A DNA stretch of 64,000 nucleotides from Bugula neritina (taxonomy: Eukaryota > Bryozoa > Gymnolaemata > Cheilostomatida > Bugulidae). The translations under genes were made by a program, and so were the position numbers. The notes under the pieces are model-generated. The model saw nothing but the letters and a program-made list of their open reading frames with translations. It did not search any database and was not told the DNA's origin. The stretch is from the NCBI GenBank assembly GCA_964035545.1, contig OZ037765.1:33231004-33295003 (forward strand). The letters run 5' to 3'. Below, piece by piece: positions 21,839 through 55,600 of this stretch (its first letter is position 1; each line of letters begins with the position of its first letter).

Positions 21839-24800
21839 ATGGCTTCTAAAGATGCATTGGACAAAGAAGTAGAACTAGAGGAGGGAGAGAAAAGCACCAC
21901 GTTCAAATCATTGGTTGGTAAACCAAAACTAATTAATAATTAATTTATAATAATTCTATTAGTATTTGCCTAAACTATATGTATACCTGTAAAACTAAAA
22001 GGAGATTAGACTTGGTAATACTAATACTAATAGTAATAGTATAACTATTTGTATTACGGTTAGTAATGCTAATGTTAGTATTAGTATTACATTTACTACA
22101 AGTACAAGTATTACTATTACTATTAGTATTACTATTACTAATAGTAATACTAATAGTATTAGTATTAGTATAACTATAACTAATTCACTTTCAGTAATAC
22201 TCTAAATTCTAATAGTAATAGTAATAATTACACTTACTCTTAGAGTTAGTGTTATAGTTATAGTAATACTAATATGAAGTTAAATTGCTCATTTATAATA
22301 ATATTTCTAATTATTGTTATATTACTAATATTAGTATTACTATTTGTATTACTGTATTAGACTTACTCTTATTTTTAGTCTTGCTCTTGAAGTTAATTTG
22401 GGTGTTGTGATGTGATCTGAATTATTATCATTTATCTGGTTATGATTACTTATAGTTATAACATATATGAATTTCAATATATCATTGTGATTGTCTGTGA
22501 TCTCTTATTCTTCCTGTGGAAAGCTGCCTAGGAATACCTTAAAAATTTAAAAATTAAATTGTGGAAAGTTTGTTGGTTCTCTTCTCTTAGCAAATCAAGT
22601 TTTAGTGATTGACTTTTTTGATTTTGTTAGCTCATCATTATCATTATGATAATACTTATAGCCACTCTTGCCATCAGATTTAGCCAATTAACCTTACCAT
22701 AACTATAAATATCAGTTTTACTATTAGTGTTAGTGTGATTGTGAATGTCAGTCTAACAACTACTGCTTTTTACAATCGCCATAAATTACCTTGATTGTGA
22801 CCATGGGCATGTTTCAGTGTCCATGAATTTGAAATTATTATCAATTTATTGATAGTGAGTATTGGAATTATTGTTAAACATAATTAGAGGATGATCACTC
22901 GATGAGGCTCGGCAATTTAGTTGTGTCAAAAGCAACTATCCTAGTTAGTTATATTAGCTAACTTCAATCTACATGTTGAATTTTTTTAAAAAGTAACAAT
23001 ATTATAGAGTGTGGTATATACCTAGAGTAATAAACAATCATTTTATCTCTGAAACTGCTATAGTTTTGTGGTTTTATAATACAACCCAGTGATTTTATCA
23101 TAAATGCTGGTTTTAAATTTATTTCGCCAAATATCAAATGAAAGCATCTTATAAAAATAAATAAATAAATTGAGTTGTGCTACCTCCAAAGTAACTTGAC
23201 GCCAGTCACGCGTTTTGTGCTATCATTTTGTCCTGATTGATGAGTTGAACTGTCACTAGATTCAGTAGTGTCTAATTTTTGATAATGCTTGCCTTTTACT
23301 TTCTTGTGCTTATAAGTTTTGTTAGAGCCTTTACTGTCACAAGGATACAAACGACAATGGTGGTCAGGGTATTCATGGTAAGCTGTGCTCTGGTTATTAC
23401 AGGCTGTTCCCGGTGTAGTTCGGGTTTTCCTCTGATATTTAGAGTTGTTGTTAGAGTTGAGATGTGTTACGGGCAGCAACTGCTGACCTCTGTTGTCTAT
23501 CAGAGCGTACTTCATTTTGTTGTTAGTCCGGCAGCAACAGATGCAGGCGAGTATCACCAGTGCCAGTAAGATGGCCGACATTGATGACAGCACCAGAATT
23601 ATTATTATTGCTGATGAGCTGCTTGTGAGATTGTTTAGTCTCTTTAGTATTGTATCTACTCTGTTTCTGATAGTGTTGTCACTTACGGTGTCTTGTATGG
23701 TGTCTTCTGTATGCATAGGATAGCCTTCTGCTAGAGTATGTCCAACTATGTGGTCATGGTTAGTCTGCTTCACTCCATTTGCTGCTATTTTTATTTTCTT
23801 ATCTTCTTTGGATGCCGGAGCGCATAAGGCCCACGTCGGTGTACTTCCAGCCCAATAACCGTCACCTTTGCATGTGGCTGTTAAGTCACTAAATAATGGA
23901 CTCGTGCATCGTAGCTTACATTCCGTTCCAACTCTCACCTTTTGTTGTAACACACACGCCTCTGGCTCCCATGTTGCTCTCGCAGATTTTATTTTCTCAC
24001 GAATGAATTTAGTTTCGCAAGTAACTGACTTACAAAAGAGTGGTTTCGGGTTCCATTCTCGGGCAATGTTGCCGTATTGCGGTCGTCTATCTACACATTC
24101 AATTCGACTGGAGGTGCCACTAAGGGCGGAAGTGCCGTAGCGACACTTGGAGTTACAGGTTGTCCCTCTTGGATACCCTAACTTCCCTATTGGCTTGTCT
24201 GAACACTTCCACTCTATCTGTAACTCATCACTGGAGATGACGGGCTGCAAACACACGTCTTCATAGAATGTCCGTTTATCATGATCAGCCACACGGTTTT
24301 GGTGAAAGTTCACGATGTACTTTGCTTCCAGTGTGTTCACACTGTGTAGCAGGAAAGAGTACACTTGTATGATGAATCTCATGCTTTCACCTTCTAGTTT
24401 CATAATGTCACTGTTTTTCTGAAAAATCTTCACGTATAACACAATGTAATTACTTTGTTATGTCCAACAATCTTCATAGCATATAATATGTAATATTTTC
24501 CATTGTATTTGCTCTCCTTGTGAACATTTCATATTGTCCCTTGATTTTAGGGTGTATTGGATGTGTTGTGTGAAGCTTGTGAACAGCTTAAATGGAAAAC
24601 TCCATCAAAGATACAAGTGGAGGCCATACCAGTTGCTTTGGCAGGTATGTTAGGAAAGTAATAGTGAACACACAGTGGTAGTATAAAAATATTATACTAT
24701 AGTCATAGTGAATACACAGTGGTAGTATATAAACATTATATTGTAGTAATAGTGAATACACAGTGGTAGTATATAAACATTATATTGTAGTAATAGTGAA

Positions 24801-33150: not shown

Positions 33151-34970
<1,820 letters not shown>

Positions 34971-36972: not shown

Positions 36973-39900
36973 ATGAATCATCGCTTAAATTTAGACGAGG
37001 AATTTATTGGCCATGGATCCTTTGGAAAAGTATACAAAAAATATGACTCTGAAAGTCAACAGGTAGTGGCTGTTAAAAAGATCAAGCTTGGTCAAGTGGA
37101 CAGTCCTGATTATGAAAAGGTGGGTTGGTTTACTCTTAGATGCAAGCTAAAAATAAGCTTCACTGGTGTAGAAGGTATGCATAGCTACTTTGGTACTTAT
37201 ACTATGGCACTATTTCCTTTTTTATTATGCACTTCTGTTTTTTTACAAGTTTTATTTATGTATTTGTCATATATTGCTGTTAAATTCCATGCCTAATAGT
37301 TATAGTAATATTTCTTTCAGCTTCAATAAAGCTAGAAAAGGGTGCTTGGGGGGGGGGGGAGTGAAATCAATGGAAACTCTATACGTCGAAGGTATAAATG
37401 CACCATTAAAGTTATAATACTATTTCTTTCAGAATATTGAAAAAGCAATGAAAGAAGTGGAGGCAATGGAGAATTTAGACAAACATGAGAGAATAGTTCA
37501 ATATATCAGACATGATGTGATATCTGATCACAGTATGTGTTTTCTACTCTGCTATTAAACATCAGGATTTTGAAAAGGAAAACCTCACCTTACCTTAAAT
37601 CTTCAGCATAAACTTATTGCAATTATATTTAATTACTTTTACTAGACTTGACATTACAAATGTTTATGTGGGCCGAATTTGTTTAACTTATAAGGTGAAG
37701 GATTCCGTCTGCTTTTGAACCCTAAAAGCTACACGAGTATACCAGCTAATCTGCAGGGGCTCAAACCCATTCATACCATGTTATCCCACATGATGTTACA
37801 AGTGGGTTTACTAAAACCTATAGTCAAAAAATGTTGTTATCGTTCTGGAGTCAGTGATGTATTGGTTATCTGTATAAACAGCAAACTGTATTTGTAAGTA
37901 ACCATGCGGATTAGAAGTAATTACACTGACACACAGGTCTGTGATGGAAACAGTCACTAAGCACAGTATGCCTATAGAATATTGTTATTAATAACTAAAA
38001 TGTTGGCTTATCAAATTTATAAGTCAAGGTTTCAACACCTAAAAGCTTTGTTTTAATTTTCCAAATTCATTTAAACCCATCATATTATAGAGCAAAAAAA
38101 GGTGCTTCACATCTTCATGGAGTACATACCTGGGGGGACAATAAGCAGCCGTCTAAAGTCTACTGGTGCCTTCACTGAAGAGGAAACTAAAAGATGTATG
38201 CGTCAGATACTGGAGGGTCTCCTATTCCTTCACAATCGAAGGAAGATACACAGAGATGTGAAAGGTACAATGGATTATGGATATCATAAAAGTTATTTTG
38301 AAATAACCTGTAACTGTCTGCACGAGTTTTTTCACCGGTTTCCCATTTATCAATCAGATCAGCCCAATTGACTTGAGATCGTTATATATGGGAAACTGGT
38401 GTTTATTTTTTGTTTCTTGCAAGTTGAAATTTTATAATGGCAAAAAAGTTTCAAAACATCATTCAGCAGCTGCAGCCTTGTTTTAAGTGAAAATTGGTTT
38501 GTTTTTAAAAGTTTGGCTTTTTCATGTTCAAGCGGCCAGGTATTTTTTGCAGATTCGAGATTAAGATTTGACCCCAACAAATTAGCCATTTACATTTCTG
38601 GTTCATGGACTCTATATTGCTGAAATCTAGTAGAATAGCCATATAAACTTTAAGGAACAGCTTTTTCATGATTTCTTTGTTACAGGTTCAAACATTTTGT
38701 TTGATGAAAATGACAACATAAAGCTGTGTGATTTTGGTTTATGTAAATGTCTGAGTGAACTTTCTTCATACAACAGTACAACTACTTTTGTTGGGACTCT
38801 CCACTGGATGGCACCTGAGATTGCGGCTGGTGAAATGTATGGCAGAAAGGTTGATATCTGGTATGTAGCTATTATATAAATGCGTCTGGAACTGTATTGA
38901 AGACATACCTATAAAAAGTACCAAACTTTCAGAGGTGTCACTAGAAGCCGAGAAATATTATATCCACAACCCACAACTTAACCTAACCGCAATATGATGA
39001 CTGCCCCATTTTAGTTTTGTTATCATGGATTTTGAGCCAACTTGAATTGGTTGAACACAAAAATAATATTATTATTGTAGATCATCTGTTTCTAACTCAA
39101 TTTTATTTTTTATGTTTTTAGATTTCTAAAATTCAGCCATCATGACTTTAGTATTGCAGAAACAGAAAATAAGTATATATATAAGTGCTATTAGCTCCAG
39201 GTGGTGTTGTGACCAAAGAGTTTAGAAAATAGTGTCAATAAATATACAACGTCTTTAATCTGCAATTTAAAAGTCTCCGATATTTTAATTTTTTGATTAC
39301 AGGAGTGCTGGAGCAACTATGGTGGAAATGCTTACAACAAAACCTTTATGGCCAACTTTAGAAACCTTTCCAACAATGTTTCAGTTTTCAAAGAAAGCTA
39401 GTCCTCAATATGACCTTGACCCATCTGTTAGCGAAGGTGCCAAACAATTATTAGTTGATGTCCTGGTCTATGATCAGTATCAAAGGCCATCTGCAGAAGA
39501 GCTGCTCAACCACCCCTGGTTTGGGACAGCCGGCTCTGGTATGATGTTTTTGGAATTTTAGGTGTTGACTATTTTTTAAATATTTCTTCGAACAGTAATT
39601 AAACATTTACTTTCACTAGTTTTTGACCTATAAAATAGTTTTGAGCAATTTAACTTCCAATATTGAATTTGTCATGTATACATGTAGCCTATGTACTGTA
39701 TTACTATTATATTACAAATGAAATATTAAGTTTCATAATAACAAAAGATGTGAAGTTATACTACTGCAGAGTCTAGGTCTAAAATTATGTATAGTATGGA
39801 AACACCCTCAGTGTAACCATATTGATACAAATTACAATAGATTTTTTCCTTCTAACCAAACTAACAGACAAAGCTAAAAATTAATAGGTAGGTGCATTAA

Positions 39901-42900
39901 TTTAAAAATTGGGAAAACCTTTGGCCTAGATAAAAATGTAGCACAAGTTATGTTCTCTCGAGAATTTCTCCCTGTGTCTCCAAACTAAAATTCACGTTAA
40001 GTTAAGTAACTAATGCTATTGAGATTTCTCCTTTACTGATCAAGATTAAAACTTTTTAGACAACAATGATGCATATAACAAGGTCTAATTTAGTTCTACT
40101 GCATTTTGCTACTCAACGAGACTTCACTATTTTTGCTTCCTTTATCTCAACATTTTATGCATTGCAGTTGCTGGTAGTAGCCAATCAGATCTCAGTGATT
40201 TCTCTGATGATGAGGAGAATCTGCTCCCTGATGGAAAGGAAGTTAAAGATATGGAGTTTATAGGACTCAAACTGAATCCCACCAGTAACATAAAGATAAG
40301 GCAGCTGTTCTCAAACACTGACAAGGTGATCACTTCTTATGGCTATGTCCTTTATCTTTGCCAGTTGTTTAGTTCAGCAGTAACAAATATTTCTCTGTTA
40401 CATCCAGGTGTTTACTATGACTAGAAAAAGAGGAAGAGCTCTGATAATAAACAACATGAACTTTGATAGGAGACCAGATTTGTGTAGGAAAGGTTCAGAT
40501 ATGGATGTTGAGAATATGTCTGCCATGTTGAAATCTCTCAAGTTTGATGTTGTGACTCACACAGACCTGAAGGCTGAGGTAACTTCTCTTTGCTATTATC
40601 TGTAACATGCTCCACTTTTGCTATTATATTAGTGCATGAGCACTCTTGTGTGTTAATGTATACTCTTTGTGCATATATAAACATGCAGTTTAAGAACAAA
40701 GATTGAAGACAAAAAAATATAAAGAAAGTGTAACATAGTGATCTAAGGATGTTTTGCTATTTAAGATATTTACAGTTAAATTTTGCTTGTTTGTTTATAC
40801 TTGTTCTTGATTTAGCTAGTCATCATAACAGTGTGGCACAGCTGTATGTTTGGTTTTGTTGGTAATTTATTAGAGCTGCAAGTCTCATATATTAGAGCCG
40901 TAAGTCTCAACTGATGCCTTAAATGGCAACGAGAAAACTATAATGAATCAAACAATATTATGTTGGTAAAGGTATGCAAAAATGTATAACAATTTATTCA
41001 AATTTATTTAAAACAATATTTTATATTACATTACAGTGCAAAAGATATTACTAAGAATAACTCAATATTTTTGTATTACCTGATTGGCTCTACATAGTGG
41101 CTGCACTAGTCATGGTTCTAGCACTTGACCTACGATGCATGGTTAGGGCAAGTCTAGAACAAAGCATGATGTGCAGCTTACAAGTATTTATAGCTAGCTA
41201 GCTAAGTTGATTTATTTACCATACAAGATGTGTTTGCTGACATAGCAAGTTTATAACAGGTCACTGATTCGATGGTTAACAAATAAGGTAAAAAAGGTTG
41301 ATGACAATAAGGTCAACTTGTTAACTATAGGTATTTTATGGATCCAATTTCATTTCTCTATTACTATTTATATACACAAACAGGATGTGCTACAAAAGGG
41401 CCATGATGGCTGTTACAGTCAGCATTACAAAAGGAGAATTGAAGTGTGTAGTTTGGGTTAATTTTTGCTGCACTTTTTCTGCAATGAAACTTGTAGGAGA
41501 TTCTGTTTGCTGTAAAATCTGAGGTCAAAAAAGAGGAACACGAAGATCTGGGATGTCATGTGTTGGTTATCATGACTCATGGAGGGCTGAACAACTACAT
41601 CTATGGTACAGACCTGAAACGAGTCAAACTAACAGATGTGTATGACCTTTTGACCCCTTTGAACTTCACAGGAATGGCTGGCAAACCAAAGGTTGTTATA
41701 CTGGAAACATGTAGTGGAGGTAATTTTTATTCACAATAGAACTGTTCACACTTGGCACAAAATTAGAAGAAGTTGCTTTAATAAAGTTCGAAATTTTATT
41801 AATTTTACTTTTTCAAGTCCTAAAAACTACATTACATGCAATGCGTTATATAATAATGTTTTACTGCAACTTACGTACACAATTCCAATAGATAGTAATC
41901 ATTAGTGAAACGTTAGCAGGCATATAACATGTTGTTAAGTAGTAAAAAAGTAAATAGAAGATGACAATACCTCCATTTTGTTGAGGTAACAATCAACAAT
42001 GCCTGTGCAATTGAATTACTAGTAAACAGATAATTTGGTGTTGTCCCACTTATGCAAGCGTTTTCATTTGAAGCTGCTGTTTGTTGTAACTGTACTTGTA
42101 ATCTCAACTTCCTGAAACGTAATACATTCAATTCTGCTGAAATAAACTATTCCTATGTTTTTCAAACGCAATCTACAAACTACTCAACATAATAATTATT
42201 CTTCTGACGTGCTTGCTGTTTCTCACATTGATTTGCTACTTAAAACTTTTGATTTGACAACTTTGTCACTTCATTTGATATATCAAGCGCAGTAACACAG
42301 CTCAGGCTACATAAGTGACTATACTTTTTGAGGTGTCTTGCCTTAAATACCAGATCATTCATAAAAAGATAGAAATTATATTTAAAGCACTAAACAACTG
42401 GGAACACGTATGATGACCTTACAAAGGAAGTCCAATCAGTTTCTCTCAAAACTCTTAGAAGTTGAATCTAATGAAAGTAGTAGTCGGGTTTTGTTTGCAT
42501 GACTAAGGCATGGGACATTAAACTACCAGAAATAACACCAATAACATCATTAATGAGCTAAAAATTAAAAAGATCCTTCTAGTGGTATTTGTGTTGTGAC
42601 CAAGCATTTGAAACAGAAATATTTCTATAGTCTGGCAGAATTTATTAGCAAATTCAAACACATTGGAACACAACCATTGCTTGTGATTACAATGTATGTC
42701 ACTCATGTATGTCTAAACATAGTAATAAAAAGTCTGTGTTACAGAGAGAAGTGATTATGGCCAAAGAGGTATAGACAGATTTGATATCGGAGAATCACAG
42801 AAAGAGGGGGAGAGCGTCTCACCTCCATTTGCTAAAGTTCCCAGATTAGAAGATGTTGAGGCTAAGAATCAACTGAACTATGATGACCTGTTAGTGATGA

Positions 42901-43919
42901 AATCTAGCATGGAGTGTGAGTAATAAATGTACATGTTATATCATACCATATAGAATATATGATGATGGTTTTTGTGTGAATGGTGCTTGAAAATACAACA
43001 AAGGTGATAATTCTCGTGATTTATTATAATTCAACTAGCTGGGAAATCCCTATAATTCAAACATCAAAACAGTTTCATTTCCTAAGTGTGAGAATATGTT
43101 TAAATAAATCTACTTGTAGAAATCATATCAGTGTTAGACTGCGTGTAATGCGCTATATTTACTGTGTGTTTTTGGTAGCATTCATATCAAAGATTCATCC
43201 TGAGTGTGGATCTCTAATGATTAGAGCTCTTGTATCCTCCATGTATAGACATGCCTGTCACCATGACCTCTACACTATATTCAAACAAGTAAGTGTAGAA
43301 AGCAAACTGTTTGAATATATTTGAGGATTCATTTAGATCTCTGCACGAGCAGTACTAGGAGTATAACTAAAGAAAGTATCAACACATTGTGTTCTACCTG
43401 TGTGCTTTTACATCACTCTAACTGCATATACTTTTAAAAAAACTGATAACTTCTTAATAGCAGGAATATTTTTCTTGCAATGCTAACTCAAAGATATTAA
43501 TGAGTCAGTGTTAGTGAAACTAATATACAAAGCCTATAAACTCGGGAGGAGGGGGGAGGGGAGAACATTGTGTAAAAGTGTAACTTGTGTATTTATAATC
43601 ACTATAATTGTTTTGTTGAGAGTGTCTCAAGATGTCTCCTGTCTACCCAATACCGAGCTTCCATTATCATGTTTGCTAATTACTAGCTGTTGTTTTACTG
43701 GTGAATTTTTGACTGGTAGACAAAGTACATCATAATAAGACTAATTCTATTTCCTGCTCTTATCTGTTTCTTCAGGTGCAGACTAAATTGAGAAAACTGT
43801 GTGTAGATCGGGATTTTGAGAGTGGAGGACAGTTGGTTGTAGTCTGGGATACTCTCACTCATATGAGAAAACTTTACCTGTTTCCTGGGTTTAATGGCTA
43901 CAAAAGAGAAGATGACTAA
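36973..43919 (+). CDS. Protein kinase-caspase fusion, 11 exons, 602 aa
   Basis: Exons 36973-37119, 37433-37532, 38091-38264, 38686-38860, 39303-39538, 40168-40325, 40408-40578, 41497-41719, 42745-42915, 43179-43288, 43776-43919; every phase joins, with no stop. Residues 9-272 are a STE11/MEKK-like kinase: Gly loop GHGSFGKV 13-20, VAVK Lys35, alpha-C Glu near 57-59, HRDVKGSN with Asp138, DFG 156-158, GTLHWMAPE ending at 185, LNHPWF near 270. An acidic linker (SDFSDDEENLLPDG) leads to a caspase-like domain, about 331-595: RGRALIINN, RKGSDMD 357-363, MTHGG with His415, IYGTD, ETCSG with Cys459, then the p10-like part GSLMIRALVSSMY and LVVVWDTLTHMRKLYLFPG. The kinase looks catalytically complete. 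The caspase dyad is present but specificity residues differ. An in-frame TAA precedes this ATG; an alternative first exon at 36387 is possible. Exon 11 has a decayed copy downstream. The kinase could phosphorylate, or control dimerisation of, the protease (inference). Confidence 0.85.
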
Positions 43920-44181: not shown

Positions 44182-45459
44182 GCATTATATACATAATTAA
44201 GTTCCAGCCTTTAAAAACTCTTTTAGGCGATTTTGTTTCAAGTTATCAATTTGAGTGGCTCAACTCTGAAGACTTGGAAGCAATATTTAGTCACAACTTG
44301 CAGTGTTGGCATTTTAATATTTGTTGACCCAATGGAGACTTGAAAGTTACTGAAAAATGTAACATAAGTCTAACGCTAAAATATTTCAACGACAGTTTTT
44401 TTATACACATTTTTGTTATTGTCAATTGAAGAATCCATGAGAGAGTATTAAAATTCATATATACCTTAGCAATTGCCTACTGACTGCTTGCTGCTCAAAC
44501 CATTTTGTTGAATATTAAATTGGTTTGTAATTTCTGGTGGCGCCTCAGATTGGCCTAAACAGTCTGTAAATGAAAGCTAATGTATATAAAGATATTTTAA
44601 TACCACATGAGTAAAACTTACCATGGATTCTTCAACATTATACCTACAATGTCCTGAGTGTATTTTAATTTTAGTATTAGATAAAATGCTATGAGTAACA
44701 CTTCAGAATTACAAGAAATCATTATACTTTTCTCATTCCTGGGCCATAAATTTTTCATGGTTTTCTCTCTTGCCTCATTTTCAGCACCATATTCTATGTA
44801 CATTGCTACTTTGAAATTACACTGTATAAGCCGCTTTATTTAAAATATTTTAGAGCTACTATATAATATCACCATATTAATATTAGTAACTTTACTAATA
44901 TTAACATAATATAAGGATATAATATATTTATACACTTACATATTAGCTAAACACTACGTTGCATTATCAGTAACTGTACCACAAGTTAATTCATTTACCT
45001 TATTCTGTAGTCTAAAATAAAACACATTTAAATATATTTTTGCACAGCAAGTACAGGAAGTGCACTAACAAATACATAAAAAATAAACTAAACAACATAA
45101 TTATTGCTCAAAAAATTGTATAAACAGCAAAATTAAAGCTAGTATTGTATACGTGGAGAAAATCTTATCAATGCAATCAATACTCACAAATATTATTGTA
45201 TACAACACTTTATTTCGAGCAAAACTAACAAACATAAGGCTATTTTATGTATTGTAGCCAACAGGCTGAAAATAGAGCTAAGAATCCAACATTAGAAAAA
45301 CAAATAATAATAAATCTATGGCAACCATTAGCAGCCTTGAGTTCCAATTGGTTCCATGCGTTTTGAGCAGAACTTAGATTACTTCGACAGCGAACTATTT
45401 TATTGATTTTCTCATAAAAACTGTTTAAAAACAGTAAAGTAGTAACTGAACTGAAGGGA
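44182..45459. other. Intergenic, no gene seen
   Basis: AT-rich sequence without conserved coding frames or clear repeats on either strand. Confidence 0.4.
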
Positions 45460-45640
45460 GCAGCCGTGGTCTAGGGGTTAGAGCGTTTGTCTAGTAAACA
45501 CGAGGTGATGAGTTCGAGCTTAGACAAAGACCATTGGTGATGTTAGGAAGAGCATCCAGTCATAATTGCCCCTGCATGTGCATCATTTAAATAAGTCCTT
45601 AGCCCGCTTTAACAAAAACCCTTTCTATTGCAGGGGTTTT
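45460..45640 (+). mobile_element. tRNA-Thr-derived SINE
   Basis: The head has an A box (tggtctagggg) and a B box (gttcgagct), plus an anticodon-arm segment (gtctagtaaac) identical to the tRNA-Thr(AGT) loop ctagtaa. The cloverleaf lacks a paired acceptor stem, and a tRNA-unrelated body follows (ttggtgatgttaggaagagc, then atccagtcataattgc) before a tail near ccctttctattgcagggg. A reverse copy at 48000-48145 and a partial copy at 11555 share the body. It is therefore a SINE with internal Pol III promoters, not a tRNA gene. Confidence 0.8.
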
Positions 45641-46225
45641 CTCACAGGCATAACGACTATAAACTTGCATGAGTTTTTTAAGTGATAACTGAACAAAATT
45701 GTCAATTACATAAATTAGATTTAGCTACTTAACAATATGCTGAATACATTGGATTTTTCTGCAGCTTTTATAAGTGGTGGACGTCAAAATGAGTGTTCAT
45801 AGAGAAAAGAGATAATGCAGTTATGTTTGTATAATGCCTATTAATATCTTTCCAATTTTCACAATAATTAAATAATATAATAAGCAATGTTTGTTATGGT
45901 TCCACTGTAGAGTATAATTGTCATATACTTATAGTAACTAGAATTATTATTCTTTGATTTTTTTTCCAAGTGTAAATATTACAATAGTAAAGAGTAGACC
46001 TGTACGTTTTACTCGAGCTGCAGAGTTACTTCCTCTCTTTTTACAATAGTAAATATAGTTAACCAATCCTGAGAGTGAGTCGGGAATAGCACGTGCAGTT
46101 TGCCGCGTTCTGAATCAACGAATATACTTGATAGATTTTTTTTCAAGAAAAGATTTATCCACTTTGATTTCTTGTCAAGATTTATATTCTTTTAACTTTC
46201 GACATATACTGATTCTTTAGTTGAT

Positions 46226-49200
46226 ATGCGCTTGCCAAAGAACTCCAGTGTTACTAGACATGTATGCCATAGAGACAACACACGTGCACAAAAATTCCGG
46301 TTCAACTTGGAGGGCAAAGCATTTTCTCAACAGTTTTCAAAGTTTTATGAAGCTCGGCTAAGAAAAACGTCTCCTCGTCTTGAAAGTTCAGCTAAGCAGA
46401 AATGGGGTTAGTACTCTGTCACCTAATGACTAAGAGTAACTGAAGTGTGAGTTGCAATTTAATTTAAATTTCTTGCTCATTGCTATTGAAACTGAAAAAC
46501 AATAATCTGACTCTCACTCTCACTCTGGATCGTTAAACTTGAAATTCAAATTGAATTAAATTCAAAGTGTTAATAGTGAATTATTAGATTAAAACTTACT
46601 CTTACACGACTTACAGTCTCAGTAACTAAACACTTTGAAATTTAGGATTGAGTTAGTAAACTAGTTTTTAGACTAGCCGTAACTGGAAGTAATGATAAGT
46701 ATTGGCAATGGCTATTGCAATTAGTATTACTGAATTACTATTAGTGAATTACATTTACTCACTTTACTGTTACAGTTATAGTTAATAAAATTTTGATATC
46801 TTCTTCTAGTAATCTACTTTCAGCATGTACTGTCAGTGCAAAAGAAGAAAGTAATTTGAAATGAGTTTTTTGAACTTATTATATACAAAGCCTCAAAATG
46901 ATAATTATAATGAATTGAGATAATAAAGTGATTAGTAGTGCAATTATATTTATATTAATATTTTTAATTATAATAATCCTGTTAACAATTTTTAATCTCA
47001 AACATTTTCCTTTACACAATTAACGTAATTGTTTAAGTATTTGTAATCATATTGATATTGGAACTTTAAATTATTTGAATTCATAACAATTGTTGGCTTT
47101 ACTTTCAAAATCAATATGATGTAAATTGCAGCTAGATGATGGTATGTTCTACATTGCTGGTGCTAATATTTTTCTATTGTGGTTATTATTTGAGTCTGTT
47201 GAAAGCATAAATAAAATGCCAGCCATCACACATAGTCTAAAGCTACATATTATTTTACATATAAACTTAGAACCTTGTATAAACAGCTAGTGCCATGTCA
47301 CAGGTTCTGATATCCCTATACGCCAAGTATGTCACGTGGTGAGTGGAGAGACCTGTATTCTCATTGGTACCATATTCAAGGAGATGAAACTGCAGCCCAG
47401 TGTTTTAAAGGAGTTGAGTGATGACCTAAATCTTCTTCCTCAGCCAATCAGAGATAACTATACATCTGAAGATGATGTGCTGTACCTGGAAGATATGTTA
47501 CAACGTATTGTATTGGTTGGCGACATAGTGGGTGATGAGTTAGTAACAGGTATAAGATAAAGACAGCGTGTTTATTGTTTTTATTTATTTCGTTTAGTTA
47601 TTACAAGACACTAATACAGTGTATAACTAGTTTCTAAAAGTCAAGTAATACTGTAACAGTTCTGTTTAGATTTGTCTTTTAAAAATCATAATGGCATACA
47701 AATAAACTTTATTTTCTTGGAAACTCTTCAATGTAGACAGACTTTGATATTCCCAACAGGAGTGAATATAGCAGTTAAGGGAGTAGAAAGGGGAGATAAC
47801 CCTGGACACTTTACAGTAGAAGATATCTGCTTTTTGAACTTATCACCGTGTCTCCCGCCATCTGGTACAGAGGAGAGGTTAGAAGTTATTCTCTCTTGTA
47901 TCTGTAGCACAGTATATATTTTACTATTTACTAATTCAAGTTTAAAGTCACTATCCCTGTGAGAACCTCTCATAAAAAGGGTTTTTATTTTATTTCAAAA
48001 CAGGTTAAGGGCTTATTCATATGCAGCTTAGAAGCAATTGTGATTGGATGCTCTTCCTAACATCACCTGGTGTTTTGACTCAAACTATGACCTCATGTGT
48101 ATTAGGCTAGCACTTTAAACACTGCACCTAAACTCTTCCCTATTTCTGTACTATGCTTTTTAAAACCATGAAGCCTCTAAGTTTTTAGATTTATCTGTTA
48201 ACATGAGTAAATGTTTTGTGAATTGTTACAGTGAAGTGCTGCTGGTCTGTGGTTTAGAGTTTGGTGGTGCTAAGGCTACACAGCTGTCTCTACAGCTTCT
48301 CTCAGACTATGTAAGTGGAGGTCTGGGAGAGACAGAAGACGTCAGTAAGGTTTGTAGAGTCATCATTGTGGGAGATTCTGTCGGGAAAGAAGTACATGAT
48401 AAAGATCAGCATTACAAGGTACTTACACTTAGTACTACATTGTACTTACACTGAGTACTACAAGATACTTACACTTAGTACTACATTGTACTTAAACTGA
48501 GTGCTACATTGTACTTACACTGAGTACTACAATGTACTTACACTTAGTACTACATTGTACTTACACTGAGTACTACAAGGTATATTATACATAGTACTGT
48601 ATATTACACTGTATATTACACTGTATATTATACATAGTACTGTATATTACACTGTATATTACACTGTATATTACACTGTATATTACACTGAGTACTATAT
48701 ATTACACATAGTCCTGTATATCACACTGCAGGCAAAGTACCTCACTAAGAACATCATAGCTGGCAGTGTTGATGCTGTAAAACAGCTAAACTCATACATA
48801 GAAAATCTCACTCAACATGTTCCAGTTACAATAATGCCAGGAGAGTACGACCCTAGCAACTATACCTTACCTCAGCAGCCTCTGCACCCTTGTATGTTCA
48901 CTGACAGTACGGGACGACTGGAGACCGCCCCCAATCCTTATGAATGTGAAATTGAAGGCACTCAGTAAGTGTTTGCCAATTTGTTAATATTATGGGCACA
49001 CGCTAGATGTTATAGTTGGTTTTTAAACAAAGTTTTTATGAAAAGTGTTTTAGTTGACTATAGAAAAGTTTGAATAGTCCGTTATGTTTTGTAGCCTCAG
49101 TTTTACACAATATTATCTGTAGTCTGAGATTCTTCTCATTTCTGTAGTATTTTGGGACACTCCGGGCAGCCCACCAACAATATAATGAAGTTCAGCAAAC

Positions 49201-52101: not shown

Positions 52102-52608
52102 TTAGGAGTTGGTATCGCCTGCTGACACTGGGTCAGTGTCTGATGCCACTGGGTCAGCACGGCACTCCGTCATATTTCCGGCAGCGTCTAAATCGTACAC
52201 CAAGTCTTCTCCGCGCATTTCGCATATCGTGTTGGTGAGGGCCATAATGTAGTTCTTAGCCAGACTCAAAGTTTCTATCTTACTTAACTTTTGTTCGGCT
52301 TCTACATGAGGAATGACGCTACGTAGATCTTGGAATGCCCCGTTCAGGTTGTGCATACGTTGCCTTTCTCGCTCGTTACTTTCTAGCCTTCTAATATTTC
52401 TTTCTCTTGCGTTTACCCCTTTTCTTTTTCTACCAGCGCGTTTTGGTGTTTGTTTCTCTAAATGCGGGATGTGCGCACTAGAGTTGTATTCTGCTTCTCC
52501 ATTGGATGAGCTAGAGCACTGGGACTCCAAGGAGTTGCGATCTTTTTCGTCTGGACCTCTTAGCCATTCTAGGTTGTCTGATGTGATGTTGGAAGTCATC
52601 AATGCCAT
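52102..52608 (-). CDS. BHLHA15: Mist1/BHLHA15-like bHLH transcription factor, single exon, 168 aa
   Basis: One intact frame. A basic cluster ([16 protein letters not shown], residues 56-71) precedes the bHLH domain at about 73-131: [20 protein letters not shown] in the basic region and helix 1, then [20 protein letters not shown] in the loop and helix 2. [11 protein letters not shown] and KLSKIETL are characteristic of the Atonal-superfamily Mist1/Dimmed group; Glu80 and Arg83 of the basic region allow E-box binding. Mist1 and Dimmed drive secretory-cell programmes in vertebrates and flies. The N-terminal region is Ser-rich and the C-terminus acidic (DTDPVSAGD). Convergent with POLD2 and divergent from CCDC40. 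A close relative such as a neurogenin or Beta3-type factor is less likely but not excluded. Confidence 0.88.
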
Positions 52609-55600
52609 TTTCTAAAACATTGCAAATTCATTTCTACATCTCTGAGTTCTATAGCTATAATAGATACTGTGACAGTTTTGTTGGTGATTTTTATTCACAG
52701 TGGAAGGATCTAACACGTGGCAGAATTCATGCTTGCTCAATGAAACCACAACATCTTGTATCTCACATTAATTATTATCACCATCCCTGGTAATGAGGGT
52801 TTCAGGTAGCTTACACATTGCCCCAAACCATACTAACAATTTGACCATCACTAATGGCTCCGCTAGAATTCAATTTACCAACCCGCCACACTAGTTTGGC
52901 ATTTTTTACCACTAGACCGCAACCACTTTCCTGCCTTTTTTAGCTATTTCAAATTTATTTTCATACAACCAGTATTTCTTAAAAATCATATACTTTTACA
53001 TTTAAATCTTGCACTATTTTTATTGAGCGCTTTATACAAACTCAATGTTGCAAAATTTCTAAAAGCAAGACTTGAAAAAAGGGAGACTCTCTATTGTCTG
53101 CATACCTCTTTTTCTTACAAACTCATAACATGAGTCCACAATATGTAAAATTTCAAGTTTTACTTCTCTAATTTTGTTATTGAATGAGCGTATTTAGATA
53201 CATTGAGTAAAGAAAATTAATAGAATGTAGAAAAATAATGTAAGCAGAGAACAACTGATGGAAACTATGTCAGTAATTACTGCAGATTGAGTCAAAAATT
53301 TATCACTGAACATTATATGCATATTTAACATTTCTGACTACAACTATAAACATCTACACAGAATTTAAAATTTTGTTTGCTAAATTGTTTCTGCTCTATA
53401 AATAAACTCAAAATTTCATAGTGTCAAACTTCATGTCAACTTTATAAATACATTCAAAATTTGATTCTGTGAAACTACATGTCAACTCTATAAATACATT
53501 CAGAATTTGATTCTGTCAAACTGAATGCCAGCTCTATAAATACACTCAAATTTTATAGTATCAAACTTACATGTCAGCAAAGCTATTTTCAATAAATATT
53601 ATTTAATAATAAGACTGAAAGGTTTGTGTAGAATCATTTGCATTGTACTCCATTCAATGGTGTACCATGTTTGTGTTTACACTTCAAAATAGCAAATTAA
53701 TGTCATGAGCTGAAGTTACAAAAAAGCAATTATTACATAATTAGTTTACCTAATCATTCAGCTGATTGGCAGATAAACAACAATCTAATAATATACAACT
53801 ACACCATTTATCAGCAGTGGAAATGTAATCCAATTTGTGTAACAACTAATATAGTATCGCATATAATATTTGCATATAGAAGTCTATAAATACAGCCCTA
53901 CTAATACCAATTTCCTGTTCCTCTGACCTCACAGTTAATATATTATACACCTCAAGCATGTCAATGCTATGAAAGATATATCACATAAACAATGGTCTCA
54001 CAGGGATAAGATGCCCCTCTTACTTTGCACACATTGCATAACACCGCCTACCATAACATGCTATTCCTGTAGTGTTGATGAAACTCATTATGTCAACATT
54101 AAGAAAAATCAATTGCATTGCTAGGATAATATTCAAACTTCAATTAATTTATTTAATGAACTTCTGCTTCAAAGTCTTGGAAATCGATTGAATGACGACA
54201 ACTGAATGAAAATTAAATTCAATCCTCTTCAACTTTTGTCATCTGATAGACATAGTTGACAGTCCCAATCAGTCAAGGTGTTTGTAGTCTATGATTGCGC
54301 CTATTGTTTTTTAAGTACGACTGTAATAGTGATGCACTTAGTGGTATCATGTGCAATATCTTAAACGGCAATTCATCTTAGAATTCAGAATTAAATAATA
54401 TAGCTTGTTTTGGTCCTTTTATTTTACTTACAAGTATTTTGAAAAGCTCCAGCATTTAGAAAATATTTATTTCAAGTTGTGTTGGGAAAAACTACCAGTT
54501 TTTTTGTGGAAAGGAAATTATTTTGTTTCTGATTTGAAGCACAAAAATGTCTAATTTCTGCAGGTTCTGAAGTTGATATGTCCTGCCCAATGCAGATGTA
54601 GAAGTAACTGAATAATTACCATTCAATAAAAAATATTTTAAAATTCAACACATTCATAGCCAACTCACCTCTATCATTACTACATTGAGATGCTACGAGA
54701 ACGATTCTGCCACTATAACTGGGTGCAAGCTATACCACAGCATCTGCATTATACAACAGCTGGTTATGAAATGTCGGTGTCTAGCTTACATGAGGCTAGC
54801 TCCAATCGATTTGATTGGCTAACTTTGCATTGGAGTGTTATGATGGTGGTACCTATTGATACTACTCAAATAATGATTTATTAGACATGCATGAGTATTG
54901 GTAACGTACTATGGATGACATTTAGAGACCGTATATTGGCCTAATATTGTGTATAATCCTTTACTTTTCAAACTAGTCGTTAAATTATGTGGACCTACTT
55001 TCAGTTTGTCTTTCCATAGTTGAATTATAGAAGAAATATTGATCAAATGGTATAACATGCTGAAAATTGCATAAAGTCCCTTGAACAGTGGGAGGGAGCT
55101 ATTCTAAGCTACCTCTTTTTATAAAAAATAATTTATAAACTCTTTTTCTATAACTTGTGATATTAGCTTCAAAGTCTCACGTCTCCCCTTGTGTTGTACA
55201 TTATGTAATTGCACTTTGTTGTGAATTTGAATTCAACTCAGTTGGAAAATTGTCTATGGTGACAGGTAATGAAGTATGGAGATTTCTATCCAGGGTATCA
55301 AATAGCTTCTTCATTTTTAGAATTTAGTAGAAATAGCATATATTTTTATTTTGGCACCAACTCTACAAAAGCTTCATAAATGTTTAGGCTTTGATAACAT
55401 GTAGGCTTCAGTGGATGTGATTAATCAATCTATTTGTGTTTTACAGTTAGTTTTAAAATAAATGTAGGGCATAGGTAACCTACTAGTACTTACACTTACT
55501 CTGCAGCCCACAGTGTTCATCTAGACTCTAGAGGTATATTCACATAAAGTTTCTATGCTTAGAATAAAGAATATTCTATTCATTTCAGTTCTTCAGTTAG

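Follow-up and report, generated by a model that had tools for sequence, protein, structure and literature searches.

Gene structure of the kinase–caspase locus

We analyzed a stretch of 64,000 nucleotides (the window) from the bryozoan Bugula neritina, positions 33,231,004 to 33,295,003 of OZ037765.1, which is listed as chromosome 1 of assembly tzBugNeri2.1 (PMC11480708). The window carries, at positions 36973–43919 of the plus strand, a gene model in which a protein kinase is followed by a caspase-like protease. Its 11 exons join in frame to a coding sequence (CDS) of 1809 nt (602 codons plus the stop codon) without internal stop, and all introns are GT-AG. The exon ends and phases proposed in the initial annotation were confirmed. 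The host is a cheilostome bryozoan, not an early-branching animal. The gene is laid out as follows.

36973..37119, plus strand: exon 1, kinase N-lobe with the glycine loop GHGSFGKV and the VAVKK lysine; uncertain start codon
37433..37532, plus strand: exon 2, alpha-C region of the kinase (KEVEAMENL); donor with the lowest score in the gene
38091..38264, plus strand: exon 3, kinase hinge through the HRDVKG catalytic loop
38686..38860, plus strand: exon 4, activation segment with the DFG and APE motifs
39303..39538, plus strand: exon 5, end of the kinase C-lobe, ending in phase 1; weak donor GTATGA
39539..40167, plus strand: intron 5, meeting point of the kinase and caspase modules
40168..40325, plus strand: exon 6, acidic linker VAGSSQSDLSDFSDDEEN; begins at the site and in the phase seen in 14 aligned paralogues, with an in-frame deletion of 33 nt
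40408..40578, plus strand: exon 7, caspase p20; first Asp-pocket Arg retained (LCRKGSD)
41497..41719, plus strand: exon 8, caspase p20 with the His in MTHGG and the Cys in LETCSG; pocket Gln replaced by Glu
42745..42915, plus strand: exon 9, inter-subunit linker, then the start of p10
43179..43288, plus strand: exon 10, p10; FISKIHPECGS against FVSWRDPKSGS in caspase-9, Arg replaced by Ile
43776..43919, plus strand: exon 11, end of p10 and stop codon
44064..44177, plus strand: broken partial copy of exon 11 with internal stops, just downstream of the gene

The kinase domain was recognized by Pfam Pkinase at residues 9–272 (234.5 bits, cut-off 31.7, E 1.8e-69). Its best solved-structure match was MAP3K2 (2e-60), and the glycine loop, Lys, Glu, HRD, DFG and APE motifs are all present in the translation, which bears out the suggested STE11/MEKK-like kinase. 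Pfam Peptidase_C14 matched residues 338–561 (124.2 bits, cut-off 21.4, E 8.4e-36), covering p20 and p10, and the best solved-structure matches of this half were an ancestral effector caspase, caspase-9 and CED-3. A Pfam scan of the gene model found no PB1, CARD or DED domain; an unfound upstream exon with PB1 is possible. The first ATG is uncertain. An in-frame TAA lies immediately 5' of it, and a possible acceptor (exon start 36995) is in phase with one in the chromosome 6 gene described below; both possible exon 1 acceptors score low (3.0 and 2.2 bits). The ratio of nonsynonymous to synonymous substitution rates (dN/dS) was 0.18–0.46 for the caspase half (12 comparisons) and 0.14–0.26 for the kinase half (4 comparisons), values that show both halves to be under purifying selection.

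The caspase half belongs to a large family behind LRR-Roc sensors

A search of the genome (215,847,546 bases in 295 contigs) gave at least 176 matches to caspase-like exons, with 150 of 295 candidates scored. The caspase repertoire of B. neritina is very large for one animal. Clusters of caspase-like exons were dense at 32.8–35.5 Mb of contig C1 and at 2.5–6.2 and 12.8–15.6 Mb of contig C6.

Twenty loci that strongly matched the window caspase were fetched; they were chosen among the best caspase matches and represent close family members. All 20 have the linker exon followed in order by the first caspase exons, and also by the later ones wherever the fetched stretch reaches them. A kinase lay upstream of the caspase exons in only one of them, L013. 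In each of the 19 non-kinase paralogues, the caspase exons were preceded by an open reading frame (ORF) with leucine-rich repeats (LRR) and a P-loop GTPase; on this sample of close paralogues, a kinase ancestral to the whole caspase family was rejected. This ORF has 684–733 codons in 18 of the 19; the nineteenth, L015, contains 4397 masked bases, which obscure the length of its ORF. Two copies were tested against Pfam Roc, and L019 scored 31.7 bits (cut-off 27) and L030 just under the cut-off (26.1). A profile built from 18 of the LRR-GTPase ORFs matched Chlorobium Roco, LRRK2 and LRRK1 in their LRR-Roc regions. Matches to COR-A and COR-B after Roc were weak and below cut-off, and the structure model of the LRR-Roc region was modest, with a predicted local distance difference test (pLDDT) of 60.5.

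The window gene shares the linker and caspase exons, in the same phases, with this LRR-Roc-caspase family, and no LRR or Roc sequence was matched at E 0.01 within the 64-kb window. Its p20 is 93% identical to that of L016. In the caspase tree, which has no outside root, the window caspase falls among the LRR-Roc-caspases at an unsupported exact place, and L013 is remote. By homology, these comparisons show exons 6–11 to be a cassette of linker plus caspase that belongs to a large family of LRR-Roc-GTPase-caspases. The kinase would stand in for the LRR-Roc sensor of that family.

The kinase half and its relatives

The kinase tree (8 rows, 193 columns; the same alignment served for the topology test below) grouped the window kinase with L034 on chromosome 8 (support 98/94) and the L013 kinase with L036 on chromosome 5 (82/79). 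At the level of sequence, exons 1–5 are thereby shown to be a cassette for a MEKK-like kinase; of the kinases compared, those closest to it are on chromosome 8. Two of the chromosome 8 kinases, L033 and L035, and probably L034 continue into a different C-terminal ORF, propeller-like by weak matches, which is absent from the window and from L013. No exons 1–2 were detected in L034. Within the 3.5 and 2.3 kb fetched for the L036 and L037 kinases, nothing matched a caspase, and none of the ORFs upstream of the window or L013 kinase matched ORFs upstream of the other kinases compared. Among the matches listed, the nearest named kinases to the window kinase were MAP3K2/3, and the top two were unnamed Lymnaea kinases.

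Repeated short ORFs lie upstream of the kinase in L033 and L035. On many small contigs (e.g. C156:37472-38209 and C284:17644-18387), kinase frames are broken by TAA and TAG and hardly ever by TGA, suggesting a co-sequenced ciliate that reads TAA and TAG as amino acids.

Site and probable manner of the fusion

The window DNA is about 93% identical to L028, L021 and L024 over a stretch that starts inside exon 6 and takes in intron 6 and exon 7. In an alignment with 14 LRR-Roc-caspase paralogues, the match spans the 33-nt in-frame deletion of the window and reaches the first codons of exon 6 and its acceptor; 5' of this acceptor, the intron does not align with the 14 paralogues. The DNA of intron 5 matched none of the 34 other loci compared. 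All seven kinases examined have, among other candidate sites, a phase-1 GT[A/G] 3' of their last kinase motif; this donor is near-consensus in L035 and L037 and weak in the window gene. The caspase cassette starts in phase 1. The cassettes thus meet at phase-1 boundaries, and DNA homology to the caspase family extends no farther 5' than the exon 6 acceptor. This places the join within intron 5, between 33,270,541 (end of exon 5) and 33,271,171 (start of exon 6) of OZ037765.1. Such a pattern is the trace expected of exon shuffling through an intron, and we consider it rather likely that the window gene is a chimera that arose in this way, with the kinase as input.

A second kinase–caspase gene on chromosome 6

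Locus L013, on the minus strand of chromosome 6 at 13,622,878–13,629,357, encodes a kinase with the same linker and caspase behind it, in 600 codons without internal stop. It has the same exon order as the window gene, and all ten intron phases are identical; some of its exon ends were set by eye. The initial annotation had put a kinase where a caspase carries its prodomain, and this claim is upheld by the second, diverged gene with its ten identical phases and by the exon 6 acceptor, which is shared by descent. A single kinase origin for the two genes was rejected by the approximately unbiased (AU) test (p = 0.000325). Since the two kinases have different closest relatives and one origin is rejected, the fusion probably arose twice, and on these alignments two fusions are the simplest reading.

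Comparing the lists of matches by eye (150 of 295, 140 of 473 and 123 of 518 candidates scored), we found a kinase and a caspase within 10 kb only in the window and on chromosome 6. Further kinase–caspase genes may be present in the genome. In other species, no protein with both Pkinase and Peptidase_C14 was seen among the best 120 of 1040 matches (7576 candidates, 331–1053 amino acids long). A search with only the caspase half gave a single protein and missed P0099, which the larger search did find; these searches are therefore not exhaustive. No kinase–caspase in one animal protein was found by searches of the open-access PMC literature for the architecture, the family or the animal.

The protease pocket

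In caspase-3, Gln161 and Arg207 take part in the Asp pocket. Arg64 of the same enzyme binds the substrate Asp, and Arg207 contacts other residues of the inhibitor (PMC1931592). Aligned with caspase-9, the window caspase retains the first pocket Arg and the catalytic His and Cys; the pocket Gln is replaced by Glu, Trp by Lys and the second Arg by Ile. The His and Cys noted in the initial annotation are therefore both there, and two of the three Asp-pocket positions (Arg, Gln, Arg) have changed. The 11 complete LRR-Roc-caspase copies likewise have Glu and Lys, and their last position is Arg (5), Ser (3) or Val (3). Glu at the Gln site, Lys at the Trp site and the catalytic His and Cys are thus found in 12 of 12 complete copies of the subfamily. 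The L013 caspase has the classical residues at all six positions aligned, and four other bryozoan proteins aligned keep the Gln and both Arg but not the Trp. A B. neritina caspase in the database (P0143, EB796_012341, 623 amino acids) has a post-Roc-like stretch and the classical Gln and Arg pocket.

Judged from its residues, the window caspase is a family member by descent, for which we do not claim classical Asp specificity. Because this copy has lost two Asp-pocket residues, an altered specificity or a role as partner or decoy seems likelier than a classical Asp-specific executioner. The window subfamily may cut after a residue other than Asp, or may partner other caspases; the copy on chromosome 6 has the appearance of a classical enzyme.

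Alternative explanations

We hold it very probable that the kinase and the caspase form one gene, given that the exon 6 acceptor is kept, the phases match, a second such gene exists, both halves are under selection and intron 5 has no AATAAA. A single transcript and a single protein would follow from this gene. Several features of the locus speak against our interpretation. With 4.0 bits, the exon 5 donor GTATGA falls under the tenth-percentile value of 5.9 among 104 donors taken from related loci, which leaves room for a product consisting of the kinase alone; the donor of exon 2 is weaker yet, at 0.2 bits. Unspliced, exon 5 reads into a TAG after 7 codons. Intron 5 holds two ATTAAA, at 39598 and 40045, and a caspase-only start is possible because exon 6 has an in-frame Met. 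The donor, the TAG and the Met would all suit two adjacent genes, the kinase ending just past exon 5 and the caspase beginning at the exon 6 Met. We nevertheless judge such a pair improbable: the exon 6 acceptor and first codons are as in the 14 aligned paralogues, where they lie downstream of coding exons, a further ORF follows exon 5 in the chromosome 8 kinases L033 and L035, the gene on chromosome 6 is arranged alike and conserves every phase, and the AATAAA is missing from intron 5, the two ATTAAA notwithstanding. The many close duplicates and the broken exon 11 copy adjoining the gene could also point to a recent chimeric pseudogene or an unexpressed by-product of a gene family in flux. 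This seems very unlikely for 602 codons that are open across 11 exons, with GT-AG introns throughout and dN/dS of 0.14–0.46.

Concerning the number of fusions, the tree that separates the two kinases has only 8 rows, and the caspase exons show signs of conversion. The synonymous divergence (dS) of the window caspase exons was 0.14–0.22 to nine LRR-Roc-caspases and 0.29 and 0.37 to two others, and introns other than intron 6 mostly fail to align with the LRR-Roc-caspase copies. Such close exons with unaligned introns hint at gene conversion, which blurs both the dating and the caspase tree. One old fusion ancestral to both kinase–caspase genes, later overwritten by conversion from other paralogues, would fit these signs and the identical exon phases of the two genes. 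We regard it as unlikely, since a common kinase origin is rejected by the AU test, albeit on those few rows, and the five-exon layout also occurs in the kinases L033 and L035, so that identical phases are expected anyway. The replacements around the Asp pocket (Gln to Glu, Trp to Lys, Arg to Ile) bear on the protease itself. A FLIP-like pseudo-protease as the caspase half of a genuine single gene, binding and regulating other caspases and leaving the kinase as the sole enzyme, would account for them and for the Glu and Lys at the first two pocket sites in every complete copy of the subfamily. It sits less well with catalytic His and Cys intact in all 12 copies and with dN/dS well below 1; we think it a minority possibility, though one to be taken more seriously than two genes or one fusion. 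The preferred reading remains one chimeric gene with a kinase as input and a protease of altered pocket.

Other features of the window

A long inverted repeat with arms 85–88% identical lies at 33267–34849 and occurs in L014 and L021 too; it is probably a dispersed fold-back element. Matches of positions 33273–34193 and 34331–34849 to L014 and L021 were considered as remnants of an LRR-Roc gene upstream and rejected, as they are the arms of this repeat. The arms occur in both orientations, as in a dispersed element, so these matches were not counted as gene homology. The remaining features are the following, the last four assigned by eye.

45455..45680 and 47930..48118: short dispersed repeat, 71–76% identical to copies in L017, L026, L030, L034 and L035
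12922..13782, minus strand: ORF like the end of a retroelement reverse transcriptase
23180..24457, minus strand: sushi-repeat membrane protein
48570..48968, plus strand: exon like a DNA polymerase delta subunit
52102..52611, minus strand: basic helix-loop-helix (bHLH) factor

Proposed working and meaning

In well-studied animals, adaptor proteins acting through death-fold prodomains set off the initiator caspases, which dimerize by induced proximity. In the window gene, the kinase might take over the role of input module from the LRR-Roc sensor. Stress or microbes would provide the signal that recruits or activates the kinase, which could then phosphorylate the Ser/Asp-rich linker or the caspase half. 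The caspase domains would be brought together and would dimerize, as in the induced proximity of initiator caspases. Cleavage of the linker could also release the kinase, as caspases do to MEKK1. Cleavage of MEKK1 by caspases has been linked to constitutive kinase activity, which sets a precedent for signaling from caspase to kinase, and the same report describes the caspase site as dispensable in the system studied (PMC3045432). The latter point, and the fact that this activation mechanism is drawn by analogy, tell against it, and the coupling of kinase and protease function in one chain is to be taken as a proposal.

Since the starting module, whether a GTPase sensor or a kinase, is fused to the caspase, the adaptor step would drop out. 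If the protein is made as read, two signaling steps that are normally separate would be coupled in one molecule. We tentatively propose that the linker–caspase cassette is an interchangeable cartridge, found behind LRR-Roc sensors and, twice independently, behind a MAP3K-type kinase; the rebuilt pocket of the window subfamily would perhaps give a new cutting preference, driven by phosphorylation. The two kinase–caspase genes offer a natural experiment: the same kind of cassette was joined to two kinds of input, probably in separate events, and the Asp pocket is classical in one of the resulting genes and altered in the other. They make it testable whether a caspase can be started by phosphorylation alone and whether animal caspases can shift away from Asp. 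In addition, a colonial animal, a bryozoan, is shown to carry a large repertoire of sensor-caspases.

Comparison with known systems

Caspase-8, caspase-9 and CED-3 resemble the window caspase in their p20/p10 sequence and in the catalytic His and Cys. The window gene differs from these initiator caspases in that no CARD or DED was found, a kinase occupies the prodomain position and the Asp pocket is altered. RIPK1 and caspase-8 are alike in that a kinase and a caspase work together. However, they are separate proteins, linked via death-fold adaptors. A description of this link is found in part in PMC8195603. The kinase domains of MAP3K2 and MAP3K3 (MEKK2/3) are the closest named ones among the matches listed (about 40–45% identity). 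Most of the MEKK2/3 proteins among those matches carry PB1 (PF00564) and none carries a caspase, whereas no PB1 was found in the window gene model. Acropora caspase-X is, like the window gene, a lineage-specific animal caspase of unusual architecture; it differs in combining an inactive and an active caspase domain, and the passages of the report describing it mention no kinase domain (PMC4715348).

The closest counterparts of the caspase family come from another bryozoan. Two predicted proteins of Watersipora subatra, P0141 (1105 amino acids) and P0142 (1419 amino acids), named at NCBI malignant fibrous histiocytoma-amplified sequence 1 homolog, have LRR, a Roc-like stretch and a caspase in one chain, indicating that at least two bryozoans possess the LRR-Roc-caspase type. 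They share the linker–caspase cassette, and the region from after Roc through the caspase is 31% identical to B. neritina L019. Unlike the window gene, they have LRR and a Roc-like GTPase (Roc below cut-off) as sensor and no kinase, and the Gln and Arg of the Asp pocket are kept.

Roco proteins (LRRK1/2, MFHAS1 and Chlorobium Roco) and bacterial LRR-GTPase-COR proteins likewise combine an input module with an effector. The window gene itself has neither LRR nor Roc, but its caspase half comes from a family of that build. Among the Roco proteins of Trichoplax, a figure legend names CARD and TIR domains (PMC4104024), and the bacterial LRR-GTPase-COR proteins are described with at least 24 different C-terminal domains, including caspases (PMC8195603).

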